55,180 nt of DNA, taken from contig NZ_AOIS01000014.1 of NCBI RefSeq assembly GCF_000337495.1, forward strand, positions 1 through 55,180. The letters run 5' to 3'. Position 1 is the first letter of the stretch, and every line of letters starts with the position of its first letter. The position numbers and the translations under genes were made by a program. Shown in pieces: positions 40,952 to 55,180 of the stretch. The stretch is from Haloterrigena salina JCM 13891 (lineage in GTDB: Archaea > Halobacteriota > Halobacteria > Halobacteriales > Natrialbaceae). Below the pieces are notes generated by a model that saw only the letters and a program-made list of their open reading frames with translations, did not search any database and had not been told where the DNA came from.

Positions 40952-41482
40952 ATGGCCAAACGCGAATCAATAGGCGACCCGAGACGGTCGTTCATGGCGA
41001 AAGGGGTCCTCGCGGTAGGGGCGCTGACGCTTGGAGCGACGGCGTTCGGGACAGCCACGGGGAGCGCACAGCGAGAGCAAACAGCGGTCTTCTCGAATAA
41101 GTACTATCCCGAAGCGAGCTTCGACGTCGTTTCGCCTCTCCAGACGAGTGCGACGGTCGAGATACTACAAGCGGACGGGGAGCCGGTTCCCGAGATCTCC
41201 CAACCTGACGAGTGGACCGGATACATCATTCGCTACGACATCGGCGACGTTCGGGAGGCGGGGATCACGACGTTTCTATTCACGCGCGGGCAACGACTGA
41301 GCGCCGGTAGCAGGGGTACGATCGGTGGAGACGCGTCAGTACTGAGTTCCCAGTTGAACCTGCTCAGTACGTCGGTTACCGAAGAGACGGAGACCGGACC
41401 GCAACCGCTCGAGGAGGACGAGATCGACGCCTTCGAGGAAGCGATCGGGGACGATGACGACCCCGAGAACGGAGGAGAGTAA
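40952..41482 (+). CDS. PDEYxG-family protein with a Tat-type signal (paralogue A)
   Basis: A 176-residue protein from the ATG at 40952 (MAKRESIGDPRRSF). The Arg-Arg-x-Phe before a hydrophobic stretch (VLAVGALTLGATAFGTATG) ending at Ala-Gln looks like a Tat signal. The mature part has ISQPDEWTGYIIRYD and later SVLSSQLNLLSTSV. These core pieces recur in three other places in the window (41485-41814, 52850-53023, 53137-53640). The C terminus is a short acidic tail. It forms an operon with the next gene (two bases between). I do not recognise a named family; the core could be a small beta-sandwich. Confidence 0.7.
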   Translation: MAKRESIGDPRRSFMAKGVLAVGALTLGATAFGTATGSAQREQTAVFSNKYYPEASFDVVSPLQTSATVEILQADGEPVPEISQPDEWTGYIIRYDIGDVREAGITTFLFTRGQRLSAGSRGTIGGDASVLSSQLNLLSTSVTEETETGPQPLEEDEIDAFEEAIGDDDDPENGGE

Positions 41483-41484
41483 CG

Positions 41485-41814
41485 ATGACACAGGATATCA
41501 ACGGACGAACGCTCGTCTTCTCGTACGACTACAAACCCGGCTCGGAGTTCGAGACGATCGCACATCTGCAAACGGGGACGACGATACGGCTCCTCCGGAC
41601 CGTCGACGGGGAGACCGTATCGGAGATCTCGCAACCGGACGAGTACACCGGTCACGTGATCCGGTACGAATCCTCCGGCGGGGCGTCGGAGCCGACGACG
41701 ATCCTGTTCGTCCGCGAGGGGCGCATCAGTACCGGCGAAAGCGCGTCGTTGGATACCGACGCGTCGATGTTCAGTTCGCGACTGAATCTCCTCGCCACGA
41801 CGGTCGAGCAGTGA
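41485..41814 (+). CDS. PDEYxG-family protein (paralogue B)
   Basis: A 109-residue protein that is almost only the shared core: LVFSYDYKPGSEFETIAHL, ISQPDEYTGHVIRYE and MFSSRLNLLATTVEQ. It resembles paralogue A immediately upstream across its whole length but has no signal peptide, so a tandem duplication followed by loss or gain of the signal is likely. It is closest in look to the truncated copy at 52850-53023 (both have ILFVREG/LMFIREG and the S-G-E-S-A pattern). The start is ATG two bases after the stop of A. Function unknown. Confidence 0.68.
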   Translation: MTQDINGRTLVFSYDYKPGSEFETIAHLQTGTTIRLLRTVDGETVSEISQPDEYTGHVIRYESSGGASEPTTILFVREGRISTGESASLDTDASMFSSRLNLLATTVEQ

Positions 41815-41847
41815 TCTCCAACTACTTTTCAGCGACGGGACGAGAAC

Positions 41848-49755: not shown

Positions 49756-51342
49756 TCAGGCCTGGCCGTTCAGCGTGATGTAGTTGAGGCCGATGATGCG
49801 GTCGTCGGCCTCGAGTTCCTCGCGGGCCCCATCGGGGATTTCGCTGTCGACGTTGTAGACGGTCAGGGCCTCGCCGCCGATGGTCTCGCGGGCGTTGAAC
49901 ATGCCGGCGATGTTGACGTCGTGGTCGCCCATGACGGAGCCGATGAGGCCGATGACGCCGGGCTCGTCGGTGTTTCGCGTGACGACCATCTTCCCGTGGG
50001 GGATGGCGTCGACGCGGTAGCCGTCGACGCGGACGATCCGCGGGTCGTCGCCGGCGAAGAGGGTGCCGTCGACGGAGACCTCGTCGTCGTCGTTGCTGAC
50101 GGTCACCGAGATCAGGCTCTGGAAGTCCTCGGCCTGCCGCGTTTTCGATTCAGTCACGTCGACGCCCCGATCCTCCGCGATCTGGGGCGCGTTGACGGCG
50201 TTGACCTGCCACTCGAGCGGTTCGAAGACGCCCTTCAGGGCGCTGGCGGTGACGAACTCGACGTCCTCGTCGGCGATGTCGCCCTCGTAGGTGATCTCGA
50301 CGTCCTCGATGCGACCCTCGAGCAGCTGGGCGGCGACCTTGCCGGCGGTCTCGGCGATGTCGATGTAGGGCTCGAGACGGGGGAAGGCGCTCTCGTCGAT
50401 CGAGGGGGCGTTCAGGGCGTTCGCGACGGGTTCGCCCTCGAGTGCGGCGTTGACCTGCCCGGCGGTCGAGGTCGCGACGTTCTCCTGGGCGGCCTCCGTC
50501 GAGGCGCCGAGGTGGGGCGTGACGATGATCTCGTCGTGCTCGAGCAGCGGCGAGTCCGTCGACAGCGGCTCCTCGGCGAAGACGTCGAGCGCGGCGCCGG
50601 CGAGGGTGCCGTCCTCGACCTTCGCGGCGAGGGCGTCCTCCTGAATGATGCCGCCGCGGCCGACGTTGACGATGTAGCCGTCCTCGAGGAGGTCGAGTTC
50701 CTCTTCGCCGATCATCCCCTCGGTCTCGGGGGTCAGCGGCGTGTGGATCGTCAGGAAGTCGGCCCGAGCGAGGCAGTCCTCGAAGTCGACGAGTTCGGCG
50801 CCGAGGCGGTCGGCGCGCTCCTCGGAAATGTAGGGGTCGAAGGCGACGATGTCCATGCCCAGCGAGTCGAGTTTCTTGGCGACCTCCTGGCCGACGCGGC
50901 CGAGGCCGACGACGCCAAGCGTCTTGCCGTCGAGTTCGGCGCCGAGGTAGTCGCTTTTCGCCCACTCGCCGTTCTTCAGGCGGATGTGGGCCTGCGGGAT
51001 CGAGCGCGCGGTCGCGAACGTCATCGCGACGGTGTGTTCGGCCGCCGCGCGGACGTTGCCCTCGGGAGCGTTGGCGACGATGACGCCCTCGTCGGTGGCG
51101 GCGTCGATATCGATGTTGTCGACGCCGATGCCGGCGCGGCCGACGATCGTGAGCTCCTCGGCGGCCTCGAGCACCTCGGTGGTGACCTCGGTCCCGGAGC
51201 GAACGATCATGCCGTTGGCGTCCGATACCGCCTCGAGGAGGTCCTCGCCCTCGAGCTCGTAGCCTGTCTCGACCTCGTGGCCGGCGTCTCTAAGTACGTC
51301 CAGACCCGCGTCGGCGATCGGGTCCGTGACCAGTACTTTCAT
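49756..51342 (-). CDS. serA: D-3-phosphoglycerate dehydrogenase
   Basis: A 528-residue long-form SerA starting at ATG 51342 (MKVLVTDPIADAG). The NAD-binding motif is VGLGRVGQEVAKKL near 145-158, and the catalytic Arg, Glu and His lie in the usual NVGRGGIIQ, FAEEPL and PHLGAST segments. After the dehydrogenase core come an intervening domain and a C-terminal ACT domain (TRNTDEPGVIGLIGSVMGDH) that probably senses serine. It catalyses the first step of serine synthesis from 3-phosphoglycerate. The start is supported by its match to the family N terminus. Confidence 0.96.
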   Translation of the reverse strand: MKVLVTDPIADAGLDVLRDAGHEVETGYELEGEDLLEAVSDANGMIVRSGTEVTTEVLEAAEELTIVGRAGIGVDNIDIDAATDEGVIVANAPEGNVRAAAEHTVAMTFATARSIPQAHIRLKNGEWAKSDYLGAELDGKTLGVVGLGRVGQEVAKKLDSLGMDIVAFDPYISEERADRLGAELVDFEDCLARADFLTIHTPLTPETEGMIGEEELDLLEDGYIVNVGRGGIIQEDALAAKVEDGTLAGAALDVFAEEPLSTDSPLLEHDEIIVTPHLGASTEAAQENVATSTAGQVNAALEGEPVANALNAPSIDESAFPRLEPYIDIAETAGKVAAQLLEGRIEDVEITYEGDIADEDVEFVTASALKGVFEPLEWQVNAVNAPQIAEDRGVDVTESKTRQAEDFQSLISVTVSNDDDEVSVDGTLFAGDDPRIVRVDGYRVDAIPHGKMVVTRNTDEPGVIGLIGSVMGDHDVNIAGMFNARETIGGEALTVYNVDSEIPDGAREELEADDRIIGLNYITLNGQA

Positions 51343-51435
51343 GCGCGAGACAATCGTGCGCAGCACGTAAACCCTTCCGTTGTTGCCAGCGGGGGCAAAA
51401 ACTACCGCTTCGACGAGACCGACTCGCGGGACGGT

Positions 51436-52938
51436 TCAGTAGCCGGACAGTCGCATCGTCGCCTGCGTTTCGAACGACGTGGTCCCGGTCGGGTGAGGGA
51501 GTCGTGCCGTCGCGGCCTCCAGCAGGAGCCAGGCGACGACGCGTTCACCCTGGATCGGTTCGTCGCCGATGTACTGCGCCGGATGGACGAACGCGGTTTC
51601 GATCTCCCGGTTCTCGAGTCGCTGGGCGCCCGGTATCTCCCCGGCGCTGCGGCGGACGACGACGACCTCCATGCCGTCCTCGAGCGGAACGCCGATCGTT
51701 TCCGGGCCCTCGGGGTTGGAAAACCGGACGGCCGTCCCGGGCTCGCCGACCAGGTAGAACTCCGTTTCCGGCGTCGTCCACTCGGCGCCGTCGGAGCGTT
51801 CGATCTCGACGCCGTCGGTGGTCCCGGGGGTGACGTCCATCGCAACCGTTGCGATCGAGTGATGGGGAACGCCGTTCTCGATCGCGTCGCCGTCGACGCC
51901 GGCGTCCGGATCGGTCTCGGGATCCGTTCCGGTGTCTGCGGACACCCCGTCAGCTATCGTGGCCGCATATTCGGTAACGAACCCCGGCCCCTGGCGGCGC
52001 CAGATCGGAACGACCGTCCCGTCGTCCCAGAACTCGGTGGCGAGTTCGTGACTGGACTGCCCGAACCGGTAGCCAGAGCGGTGGTCTCGACCCTCGGCGC
52101 CTCGAGCACCGGTCTGATAGTGGGCTCTGAACCGGAATCCGGCCGGTCGGTCCGCGCCTCCGGGATAGGTCACGGTACCGAGCAGTCCCGGTCCGCCGAC
52201 CCCGACGCCGTGGACGTCCCAGACCAGCACGTCGCCGCTGAACACGGACCCGTCGTCCGGAAAGAACCACTCCAGCGTGTTCTCGCCGTCGCGTTCCGGG
52301 AGGCCGTAGCCGCTGAGGGTCGCGGGCGACTCCAGGCTCGCGAACACCGGGCGATTCCGAAACTCGGCGGCAATCTCGACGCCGTGGGTTCCCGAGTCGT
52401 CCCACCCGATTCGCCACCCGTCCCGATCGAACGGCTGCGACGGGTCCTCGATCCGGTGGCCGCCGTCGACCGCGGTGTACCACGGTCGCCGCTCGAGTGG
52501 GACCGACGGAAGGGTTCCGAGGACAGTGTCGTCCGCCGGCACGATGGTCGCCGCCAGTTCGTGCAGCGGGACCTCGACGAACCGTTCGACTCGCGTCACG
52601 TCACTCACTTCTCCGACGTCGTCGTTCCGCACGTCGAGATCGACGACCAGGGCGGTGATCGCTTCGGCCTCGTCGACGAACAGGACGATCGGGATCACGC
52701 CGCCGCGTTCGATCTCGCCGGTCGCGGTAATCGATTCGGCGATCGGCAGCGACGGAAACCAGTCGTTGCCGTCGGCGTACTCCTGTACGCGGGTGTCTTC
52801 GAAGAGCCGTCGGAGCCGCGCTTCCTCGAGCCCCGCGTCGTCCGCCTCCGACGAGTACGTCGGCCACGTCGTGCGGTACCAGGTCGACGGCGGCCCGGTA
52901 AGTCCCACGACGCTCATGTTCATCCGCGAGGGGACCAT
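51436..52938 (-). CDS. Copper-amine-oxidase-like protein with a replaced or lost N terminus
   Basis: A 500-residue frame. The body has WYTAVDGGHRIEDPSQPFDR, WRIGWDDSGTHGVEIAAEF, a SGYRFGQSSHELATEFWDDG segment and a late HHSIATVAMDV. These resemble, in order, parts of the beta-sandwich catalytic domain of copper amine oxidases, but the usual Asn-Tyr-Asp/Glu cofactor site is not evident. It is shorter than the family norm at the N terminus. Its first ATGs (52938, 52923, 52917) all lie antisense to the remnant gene at 52850-53023, so the first 30 residues are not native to such a domain. No later ATG or GTG start is found before the body. It may be a chimera or a 5'-truncated pseudogene. The family resemblance is weak. 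Confidence 0.5.
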   Translation of the reverse strand: MVPSRMNMSVVGLTGPPSTWYRTTWPTYSSEADDAGLEEARLRRLFEDTRVQEYADGNDWFPSLPIAESITATGEIERGGVIPIVLFVDEAEAITALVVDLDVRNDDVGEVSDVTRVERFVEVPLHELAATIVPADDTVLGTLPSVPLERRPWYTAVDGGHRIEDPSQPFDRDGWRIGWDDSGTHGVEIAAEFRNRPVFASLESPATLSGYGLPERDGENTLEWFFPDDGSVFSGDVLVWDVHGVGVGGPGLLGTVTYPGGADRPAGFRFRAHYQTGARGAEGRDHRSGYRFGQSSHELATEFWDDGTVVPIWRRQGPGFVTEYAATIADGVSADTGTDPETDPDAGVDGDAIENGVPHHSIATVAMDVTPGTTDGVEIERSDGAEWTTPETEFYLVGEPGTAVRFSNPEGPETIGVPLEDGMEVVVVRRSAGEIPGAQRLENREIETAFVHPAQYIGDEPIQGERVVAWLLLEAATARLPHPTGTTSFETQATMRLSGY

Positions 52939-53023
52939 CAGTAGCGGCGAGAGCGCGACGCTCGGCGAAGAAGCGACGATGTTCAGCCCGACGCTGAACC
53001 TCCTCTCGACCGACGTCTCGTAG
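52850..53023 (+). pseudogene. 5'-truncated PDEYxG-family gene (paralogue C)
   Basis: The plus frame from about 52850 to the TAG at 53021-53023 reads DEYVGHVVRYQVDGG, TTLMFIREGTISSGESATL and MFSPTLNLLSTDVS. This matches the C-terminal halves of the proteins at 41485-41814 and 53137-53640. The match stops abruptly at Asp-Glu-Tyr; the sequence before it in frame is Ser/Arg-rich shadow of the amine-oxidase-like gene on the other strand. There is no start codon in the remaining family part, so this is a broken gene. Confidence 0.65.
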
Positions 53024-53136
53024 CGCTTCCGTCGCGTACTCCTCCGTCGATTATTTTTGATTGGGTTCGGGAAGCGGGTCCGAATCGACGCCGGTAGAGG
53101 AACGACCGACAGAGACCGCCACTACCACACCGTCAC

Positions 53137-53640
53137 ATGACCGCCGAACGGAGTCAGAATCAGTCGAACAGGTCGTCGGCCGCAGCGGGCGAGTCGTCGA
53201 ACGCATCGAAAGCGCGGATCGACACCGCCAGTATCGTCGTCGTCGGTACGTCCGCCTCGATCGAAGCCACCGACGTCGAGACCGAGTCGTCCGAGGCGGA
53301 CGCGCAGTCCGAAGACCGTCATCTCGTGCTGGTATCGCTCGACGACTACCGCCCGGGGTTGACCGTTCGCCTCGTCGATCGACTGCCGGCGACGACCGTC
53401 GTTCGGCTTCTTCGAACGCCCGACGGCGAAACGGTGCCGGTCCTCACACAACCCGACGAGTACGCGGGCTACGTCGCCCGCTCGACGCTCGAGGGCGGGG
53501 CGGTCGGAACCACGACTCACCTCTTCGCGCGCGAGCAACTCGAGACGGGCGCGGAGTACGAACTCGTCGGCGACGCGCAGGTGTTCAGCACGCGGCTGAA
53601 CCTGTTTCGGGTGACCGCCCGTCGCGTCGATGAGGAGTGA
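53137..53640 (+). CDS. PDEYxG-family protein (paralogue D)
   Basis: A 167-residue protein. The N-terminal 60 residues are polar and low in structure (Ser/Glu/Asp-rich). The shared core follows: LVLVSLDDYRPGLTVRLVD, TVVRLLRTPDGETVPVLTQP, DEYAGYVARSTLE and FSTRLNLFRVTARRV. It resembles paralogue B most in VxRLLRTxDGETV. It has no signal peptide. It lies about 110 bases after the truncated copy in the same direction, so C and D were probably a tandem pair like A and B. Function unknown. Confidence 0.68.
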   Translation: MTAERSQNQSNRSSAAAGESSNASKARIDTASIVVVGTSASIEATDVETESSEADAQSEDRHLVLVSLDDYRPGLTVRLVDRLPATTVVRLLRTPDGETVPVLTQPDEYAGYVARSTLEGGAVGTTTHLFAREQLETGAEYELVGDAQVFSTRLNLFRVTARRVDEE

Positions 53641-53777
53641 CGCGACGGGGAGCGCCCGCCGGCAACCCGATCGAACCGTCGTCCGAACGATCGGCTACCG
53701 GCGCCGACCGGCGGACCGTCGCCGCCGATGACGTTCGAACGAACAACTATATGTGCGTCTCGTGTCACATTTTACCA

Positions 53778-54608
53778 ATGGCACGACTCGAGCGGCTCAG
53801 GGTCTATCCGATCAAGGGACTCGACGGTATCGAACTCGAGACCGCCGAACTTCTCGCGGGCGGCACGCTCGCGTCCGATCGGGAGTTCGCCCTCTTCGAC
53901 GCGGACGGCGAAGTGCTCAACGGGAAGCGGACGGAGCGGGTCCACGACCTGCGGACCGATTTCGATCCGGGCGTTGCGACTCCGTCGCAACGACGTGGAG
54001 GCGGTGAAGCCGCCGAAACGGCGGTCCTCGAGGTCGAAGCGCCCGACGGCGAGGTCGTCCGGTTCGAGCTCGAGACGGAAACCGGCCGCGACCGCGCCGC
54101 GGACTGGTTCGGCGACTTCTTCGACGTAGAGCTGACCCTCGAGCGCGACCGAACGCTCGGCTACGTCGACCGCCGCGAGATGGGGCCGTCGGTGATCAGC
54201 ACCGCCACGCTCGAGACCGTCGCCGACTGGTTCGACGACGAGGGGATGACCGTCGAGGGGGCTCGTCGGCGCCTCCGCGCGAACGTCGAGATCGGCGGCG
54301 TCGAACCGTTCTGGGAGGACCGCTTCGTCGGCGAGGACGCTCCGGCCTTCGAGGTCGACGGCGTCCGGTTCGAGGGCGTCACCCCCTGCGGTCGCTGTGT
54401 CGTCCCCCGACGAGATCCCGAGTCCGGCGAGCCGATCGAGGAGTTCCGGCAGCGATTCGTCGAGAAACGCGAGGAAACGTTCCCCGACTGGGCCGACGCG
54501 GACGCCTTCGACCACTACTACACGGTGATGCTCATCTCCCGCGTGGCCGAGGCCGACCGCGGCGAAACGCTTCGCGTCGGCGATTCCGTGCGCGTCGTCG
54601 ACGACTGA
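53778..54608 (+). CDS. MOSC-domain protein
   Basis: A 276-residue protein starting at ATG 53778 (MARLERLRVYPIKGLDG). The first 110 residues form the MOSC N-terminal beta-barrel domain (REFALFDADGEVLNGKR). The MOSC domain proper ends with the conserved TPCGRCVVPRRDPESGE near residues 199-215, where the cysteine can bind molybdenum cofactor or carry sulfur. Related proteins (YcbX, mARC) reduce N-hydroxylated compounds. A longer frame from 53637 is not supported. Confidence 0.85.
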   Translation: MARLERLRVYPIKGLDGIELETAELLAGGTLASDREFALFDADGEVLNGKRTERVHDLRTDFDPGVATPSQRRGGGEAAETAVLEVEAPDGEVVRFELETETGRDRAADWFGDFFDVELTLERDRTLGYVDRREMGPSVISTATLETVADWFDDEGMTVEGARRRLRANVEIGGVEPFWEDRFVGEDAPAFEVDGVRFEGVTPCGRCVVPRRDPESGEPIEEFRQRFVEKREETFPDWADADAFDHYYTVMLISRVAEADRGETLRVGDSVRVVDD

Positions 54609-54725
54609 CTCGAGCGCATAGAGCCGGTAGCGTAGCTGTTTTTGTCCGTTAGGCGCACCCGCGTACGTGTGCGATAGTGCGCCGGCGACCGAAGGACGTC
54701 GACCGCGAGGCGCCGAAACCCATCG

Positions 54726-55180
54726 TCACGCGGTCGGTTTCGAGGCGGACGGTATCTCGAGCGCTTCGGCGACACGTATCACGTCCCGTACCGGGCCGAT
54801 TTCCCGCGCGGGCGCGTCGTCGTCCCAGCCGACCGTCAGCCGGAGCCGCCCGGCGCCGAGGAGTCGCTCGTCGAACCAGTCGGTGGCGACCGTCACGTCC
54901 CGGATTTCTTGCACCGGCGCCGCCCACTGGGGTTCCTCGAGGAACGTATCGTAGGCGACGATCGCCTCGTCGTAACGCCGGTACTCGAGGGTACCGTACC
55001 GAAGGAAGTAGGCAGCGAGCTGGACGCCGAACGCGAGCAGCACCGCGGCGACCAGCGCGGCGGCGCCGACGGGGACGACCAGCGACGAACCGGTCGCGCT
55101 CGCGAGGACGGAGACGACCGCCAGCCAGAGCAGGCCGAACAGCGGCGCGCCGCCGGCGATCCGAGCGAGCGCGCGGAGGG
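54726..55180 (-). CDS. Bacterial-type PH-domain membrane protein (partial)
   Basis: The C-terminal 150 or so residues of a gene that runs off the right edge of the window. Two membrane helices come first (PLFGLLWLAVVSVLASATG and ALVAAVLLAFGVQLAAYFL), then a domain with RYGTLEYRRYDEAIVAYDTF and GRLRLTVGWDDDAPAREIGP. The order (helices, then a PH-like beta domain with a V-x-D/T-x-x strand) fits bPH_2/YdbT-like proteins. The true start lies beyond 55180. Function unknown. Confidence 0.6.
   Translation of the reverse strand, partial: LRALARIAGGAPLFGLLWLAVVSVLASATGSSLVVPVGAAALVAAVLLAFGVQLAAYFLRYGTLEYRRYDEAIVAYDTFLEEPQWAAPVQEIRDVTVATDWFDERLLGAGRLRLTVGWDDDAPAREIGPVRDVIRVAEALEIPSASKPTA

Follow-up and report, generated by a model that had tools for sequence, protein, structure and literature searches.

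The question raised by this locus is whether a long open reading frame at the meeting point of two genes is a new gene, with an N terminus born from antisense DNA, or the damaged end of an old one. The window analysed was the whole of contig C14 (55,180 bases), taken from a haloarchaeal assembly of 4.84 Mb in 71 contigs that is 99.3% complete (G000). It contains a minus-strand frame of 500 codons (51436-52938, with its ATG at 52938), which faces a plus-strand gene of a small family, here called C. The initial annotation had placed the two genes head to head, meeting near 52850, with the family gene short of its 5' half, and had proposed that a deletion fused two broken 5' ends. We use 'oxidase-like' solely as a handle for the minus-strand gene, with no claim about its family, because family searches were negative and a profile comparison with copper amine oxidases gave a weak result. 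Family-wide searches spanned 125 genomes, with one genome of the window's species. Five congeners were searched besides G000 (G023, G024, G025, G026 and G027), and the cassette locus of G025 (L041) was the reference for the junction alignment.

Intact cassettes in relatives and the deletion junction

Intact versions of both genes, which the initial annotation had suggested looking for in relatives, were found at the same locus in three of the five congeners (G024, G025 and G027). In G025, serA (minus strand) is followed by a 633-codon twin-arginine gene, the oxidase-like one (minus strand), an intergenic region of 700 bp, the small genes E, C and D (all plus strand) and a MOSC-domain gene (plus strand). 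Gene order in G024 and G027 matches that in G025. E encodes a Tat-type signal, and C, of 109 codons, starts 2 bp behind it. The four-gene divergent cassette (L041:3214-7316) is conserved in eight genomes besides G000, and no Pfam family was found for any of its proteins.

The window aligned with L041 in two gap-free arms: window 49758-52849 corresponds to L041 1536-4627 (97.0% identity) and window 52848-53970 to L041 6524-7646 (96.5% identity). The arms meet at 52848/52849 in a 2-bp CC overlap, both bases of which fit either side. Relative to the intact loci the window shows a clean loss of 1,898 bp (G025 and G027) or 1,929 bp (G024). The deletion took 163 of the oxidase-like gene's 633 codons, among them those for the twin-arginine signal, together with the divergent intergenic region, the whole of E and 52 of the 109 codons of C. 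What is left of the oxidase-like gene, of about 633 codons and Tat-exported type in relatives, is a 3' part of 470 codons plus stop (51436-52848, minus strand). The 5'-truncated remnant of C runs from DEY to the stop codon and retains 57 codons (52850-53023, plus strand). The head-to-head meeting of the genes and the loss of the 5' half of C were thus borne out, and the proposed fusion of two broken 5' ends by a deletion finds support in the three congeners with an intact locus and in a junction placed to the base.

A 27-base string across the junction, searched with up to two mismatches, was present in one of the 125 family genomes, namely G000. As one genome of the species was compared, the deletion may be confined to a single isolate. 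The missing segment had no further copy in G000 apart from a 70% match to the paralogous gene pair A-B (C14:40968-41633); all other matches in that genome were weak, with E-values of 0.004 at best, and short. As the segment is found nowhere else in G000, its translocation was rejected.

Downstream of the junction, at 53970-54032, the MOSC-domain gene is 45 bp longer than its counterparts in G025 and G024 (61 versus 16 unaligned bases), with the frame kept.

Reading frames across the junction

Codons 1-30 of the 500-codon frame (52849-52938, minus strand; codon 30 straddles the junction) are the antisense of the C remnant and not ancestral coding sequence, as the initial annotation had recognised. 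Across the 125 genomes, matches confined to residues 1-36/37 fell only inside the intact C of G024, G025 and G027, with 73-83% identity, and in these genomes the oxidase-like gene is about 1.9 kb away from the matching stretch. No relative was found that has this N terminus but lacks the PDEYxG gene, C, the finding that had been named as evidence against the proposal.

We asked how often such an extension is to be expected. On 15 reading frames of the window, picked as genes by hand from the list of open reading frames, the three antisense phases were open for 30 codons at 90%, 58% and 48% of places, or about 65% over the three phases. About 65% of random joins should therefore carry an open extension of 30 codons, whose presence is no sign of coding. 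A mirror-image chimeric frame lies on the plus strand (52475-53023), where the antisense of the oxidase-like gene is fused to the C remnant. One phase match opens both frames, so that the two chimeras amount to one coincidence and not two. In GC-rich DNA antisense frames are often open, and the new N terminus is a side effect of this; the long reading frame is most likely a damaged gene, not a new one.

A chimeric protein is nevertheless possible as a prediction from the open frame. It would require that, under an antisense promoter between C and D, a formerly exported protein is now expressed in the cytoplasm and carries an antisense-born N terminus of 30 residues, which we consider very unlikely. 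In its favour, the frame is open and has an ATG, and an AT-rich island (at least 10 of 12 bases A or T; 53047-53063, no strand assigned) lies upstream of it on the minus strand. This island is the sole one in 51000-55180 and falls between the C remnant and D. It is possibly the promoter of D and, lying at least 109 bp upstream of the ATG, might also start transcription on the minus strand. Antisense starts are also common in Haloferax volcanii, for which 1244 antisense start sites (aTSSs) and a share of 72% leaderless protein-coding transcripts are reported (PMC4983044), so that weak antisense expression in the window would not be odd. Against a working chimeric gene stand the chance level of the open extension, the loss of the export signal, the lack of any such protein in relatives among the 125 genomes and the removal of the region between the divergent genes. 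Because that region is gone, both promoters were probably lost.

The state of the remaining 470 codons bears on the age of the event. Compared with G025 they contain no indel, stop or frameshift. Lineage-unique codon changes (synonymous/non-synonymous) numbered 6/6 in G000, where the counts are few, against 17/6 in G025, 4/7 in G024 and 29/28 in G027. There is no clear excess of amino-acid changes, a point which a working chimeric gene could also claim. The counts are compatible with relaxed selection as well as with its absence, and so are no proof of pseudogene status. With no frameshift and no clear amino-acid excess, the event is young.

Break points, assembly and polarity

The surroundings of the break points offered little in the way of repeats. 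An overlap of at least 2 bp arises at 20% of random joins. In G025 and G024, though not in G027, the word TCCCAG stands at both break ends; among random pairs, 25% share some 6-base word near the two ends. Direct repeats as a cause were rejected, since TCCCAG is within chance and missing in G027. As both the overlap and the shared 6-mer are common at random, no repeat-driven mechanism is shown.

The same surroundings were informative about the assembly. A draft of 71 contigs, from the one genome of its species that was compared, could in principle have been wrongly joined in a strain that keeps the intact cassette. However, the 300-bp neighbourhoods of the break points in G025 have no word of 12 or more bases in common, which makes collapse at a repeat unlikely, and misassembly by this route was rejected. 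The missing segment is also on no other contig, despite the completeness of the assembly. We consider an artefact of assembly very unlikely.

To judge polarity, the arrangement across genomes was read from the match coordinates of two 125-genome searches. The oxidase-like gene is divergent from E-C-D in each of the eight further genomes whose oxidase-like match has 61-96% identity (G008, G009, G024, G025, G027, G066, G078 and G093, from several genera), and also in G099, where the match is 49%. By coordinates, oxidase-like and small genes lie apart in four genomes with more distant homologues only (G012, G067, G068 and G072). Since the divergent arrangement is present across the other cassette-bearing genomes, the state of the window is derived by loss. 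An origin of the intact cassette by insertion into a short ancestral form kept in the window would suit G023 and G026, in which serA directly adjoins the MOSC gene with no cassette in between, but it is extremely improbable given full-length genes in identical divergent order in eight other genomes and a break inside two conserved coding sequences, which insertion would not create. In Halovivax, an open reading frame that by eye resembles a TnpB-type transposon protein (L039:710-1984) lies about 50 bp downstream of the cassette gene D.

We therefore favour, as very probable, a recent illegitimate deletion of about 1.9 kb that left two promoterless, 5'-truncated relics. In recent ancestry it hit the middle of the divergent cassette, with the oxidase-like gene on the left and E, C and D on the right. 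Removed were the Tat signal within the first 163 oxidase-like codons, the whole of E, C up to its codon 52 and the 700-bp region, which should have held the promoters of both divergent genes. We infer that the stumps were then joined head to head by an illegitimate mechanism. By chance, the antisense of the C remnant has no stop in the frame of the oxidase-like gene, so that the reading frame runs 30 codons beyond the break. The two stumps are, most probably, relics with neither promoter nor export signal of their own, and would have lost expression. On the other side, the 470 codons show no decay beyond the truncation.

D (53137-53640, plus strand), the third gene of the E-C-D series, is the sole intact gene of the cassette left in G000. 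The cost of losing E and C may have been eased by the intact A-B pair 11 kb away, which could act as a buffer.

Cassette proteins and known systems

The A-B pair (40952-41817) is an intact E-C-like copy about 11 kb from the broken cassette. Gene A (40952-41482, plus strand), a paralogue of the deleted E, is intact and encodes a Tat-type signal; gene B (41485-41817, plus strand), a paralogue of C, is intact and starts 2 bp behind A. The pair is also found in G024 and G025, and is not among the three matches listed for G027. No Pfam or NCBIfam family was found for the small family proteins. The best of five models of the small domain, built from seven sequences, reached a mean pLDDT of 84.6 (58-72 for the others), and its best match in the PDB had an E-value of 0.81, i.e. 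none.

An oxidase-like match was found in 38 of the 125 family genomes, mostly in frames of 600-750 aa. N-terminal RR motifs were seen in the oxidase-like loci inspected, and a twin-arginine signal was recognised by eye at the N terminus in G024, G025, G027 and L039; by alignment, it is deleted in the window. The initial annotation had called the gene amine-oxidase-like, a label that did not hold up. Pfam and NCBIfam gave no family (the single NCBIfam row, E 0.23, is at chance level), and a profile of 32 oxidase-like sequences gave no match to a solved structure (the single PDB row, E 0.86, likewise at chance level). The Cu_amine_oxid family (PF01179) had no match in G000, though it occurs in 15 of the 146 genomes searched from the order. 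A structure model of the oxidase-like protein had a mean pLDDT of 31 and was unusable.

A remote profile comparison, for which 11 of 12 fetched haloarchaeal copper amine oxidase loci were used, was collinear but weak (E 0.032, probability 1.6%). In copper amine oxidases the cofactor tyrosine lies in the motif N-Y-D/E. Opposite this motif, in the same weak alignment, the cassette-linked clade has QSSHE or QSSNE (near residue 424 of L010 in family alignment A2) and all other aligned members of the oxidase-like family have PYNY; a cofactor tyrosine in N-Y-D/E is absent at the aligned site. Membership of the copper amine oxidases was rejected on these grounds: Pfam, NCBIfam and solved-structure searches were negative and the profile comparison was weak. 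Thus the likeness to that family consists of the collinear alignment and of the homologue L037, in which a copper-binding domain of the plastocyanin/azurin type (PF00127, E 1.8e-07) lies close to the N terminus, whereas the differences are the missing Pfam and solved-structure matches and the sequence at the cofactor motif. In the library searched, no paper joins haloarchaea, copper amine oxidase and Tat signal, and the listings examined gave nothing on the locus.

As close relatives with the intact locus show, an eye-catching antisense 'new N terminus' in the GC-rich genome of an archaeon can thus follow from an ordinary deletion, at about chance level, and gene-finding software might list the two stumps as intact. 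The comparison also brought out a conserved cassette that sets an exported-type protein in divergent orientation to three small paralogous genes; its proteins have no Pfam family, and the small domain has no fold match.

Among known systems, microhomology-mediated end joining in Haloferax volcanii is alike in being a simple haloarchaeal deletion with a very short overlap. In that study, overlaps are 3-5 bp and deletions 6-977 bp long (PMC2700283). The join in the window differs in both respects, with 2 bp, below the microhomology seen in Haloferax, and a loss of 1.9 kb. In the E. coli long-term evolution experiment, a large illegitimate deletion likewise gave an antisense region a new neighbour. 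There, the deletion brought a strong promoter beside the antisense region and translation of that region was measured as ribosome profiling reads (PMC11101190), a precedent for a working chimeric gene. In the window, by contrast, the divergent intergenic region was removed, and the case is known from sequence. The closest likeness is to ordinary 5'-truncation pseudogenes made by illegitimate deletion, with a clean loss of one segment, two broken coding sequences, both start regions gone and no long repeat at the ends. The window differs from these in being joined head to head, and it is this orientation that gives the two stumps mirror-image antisense extensions in both directions.
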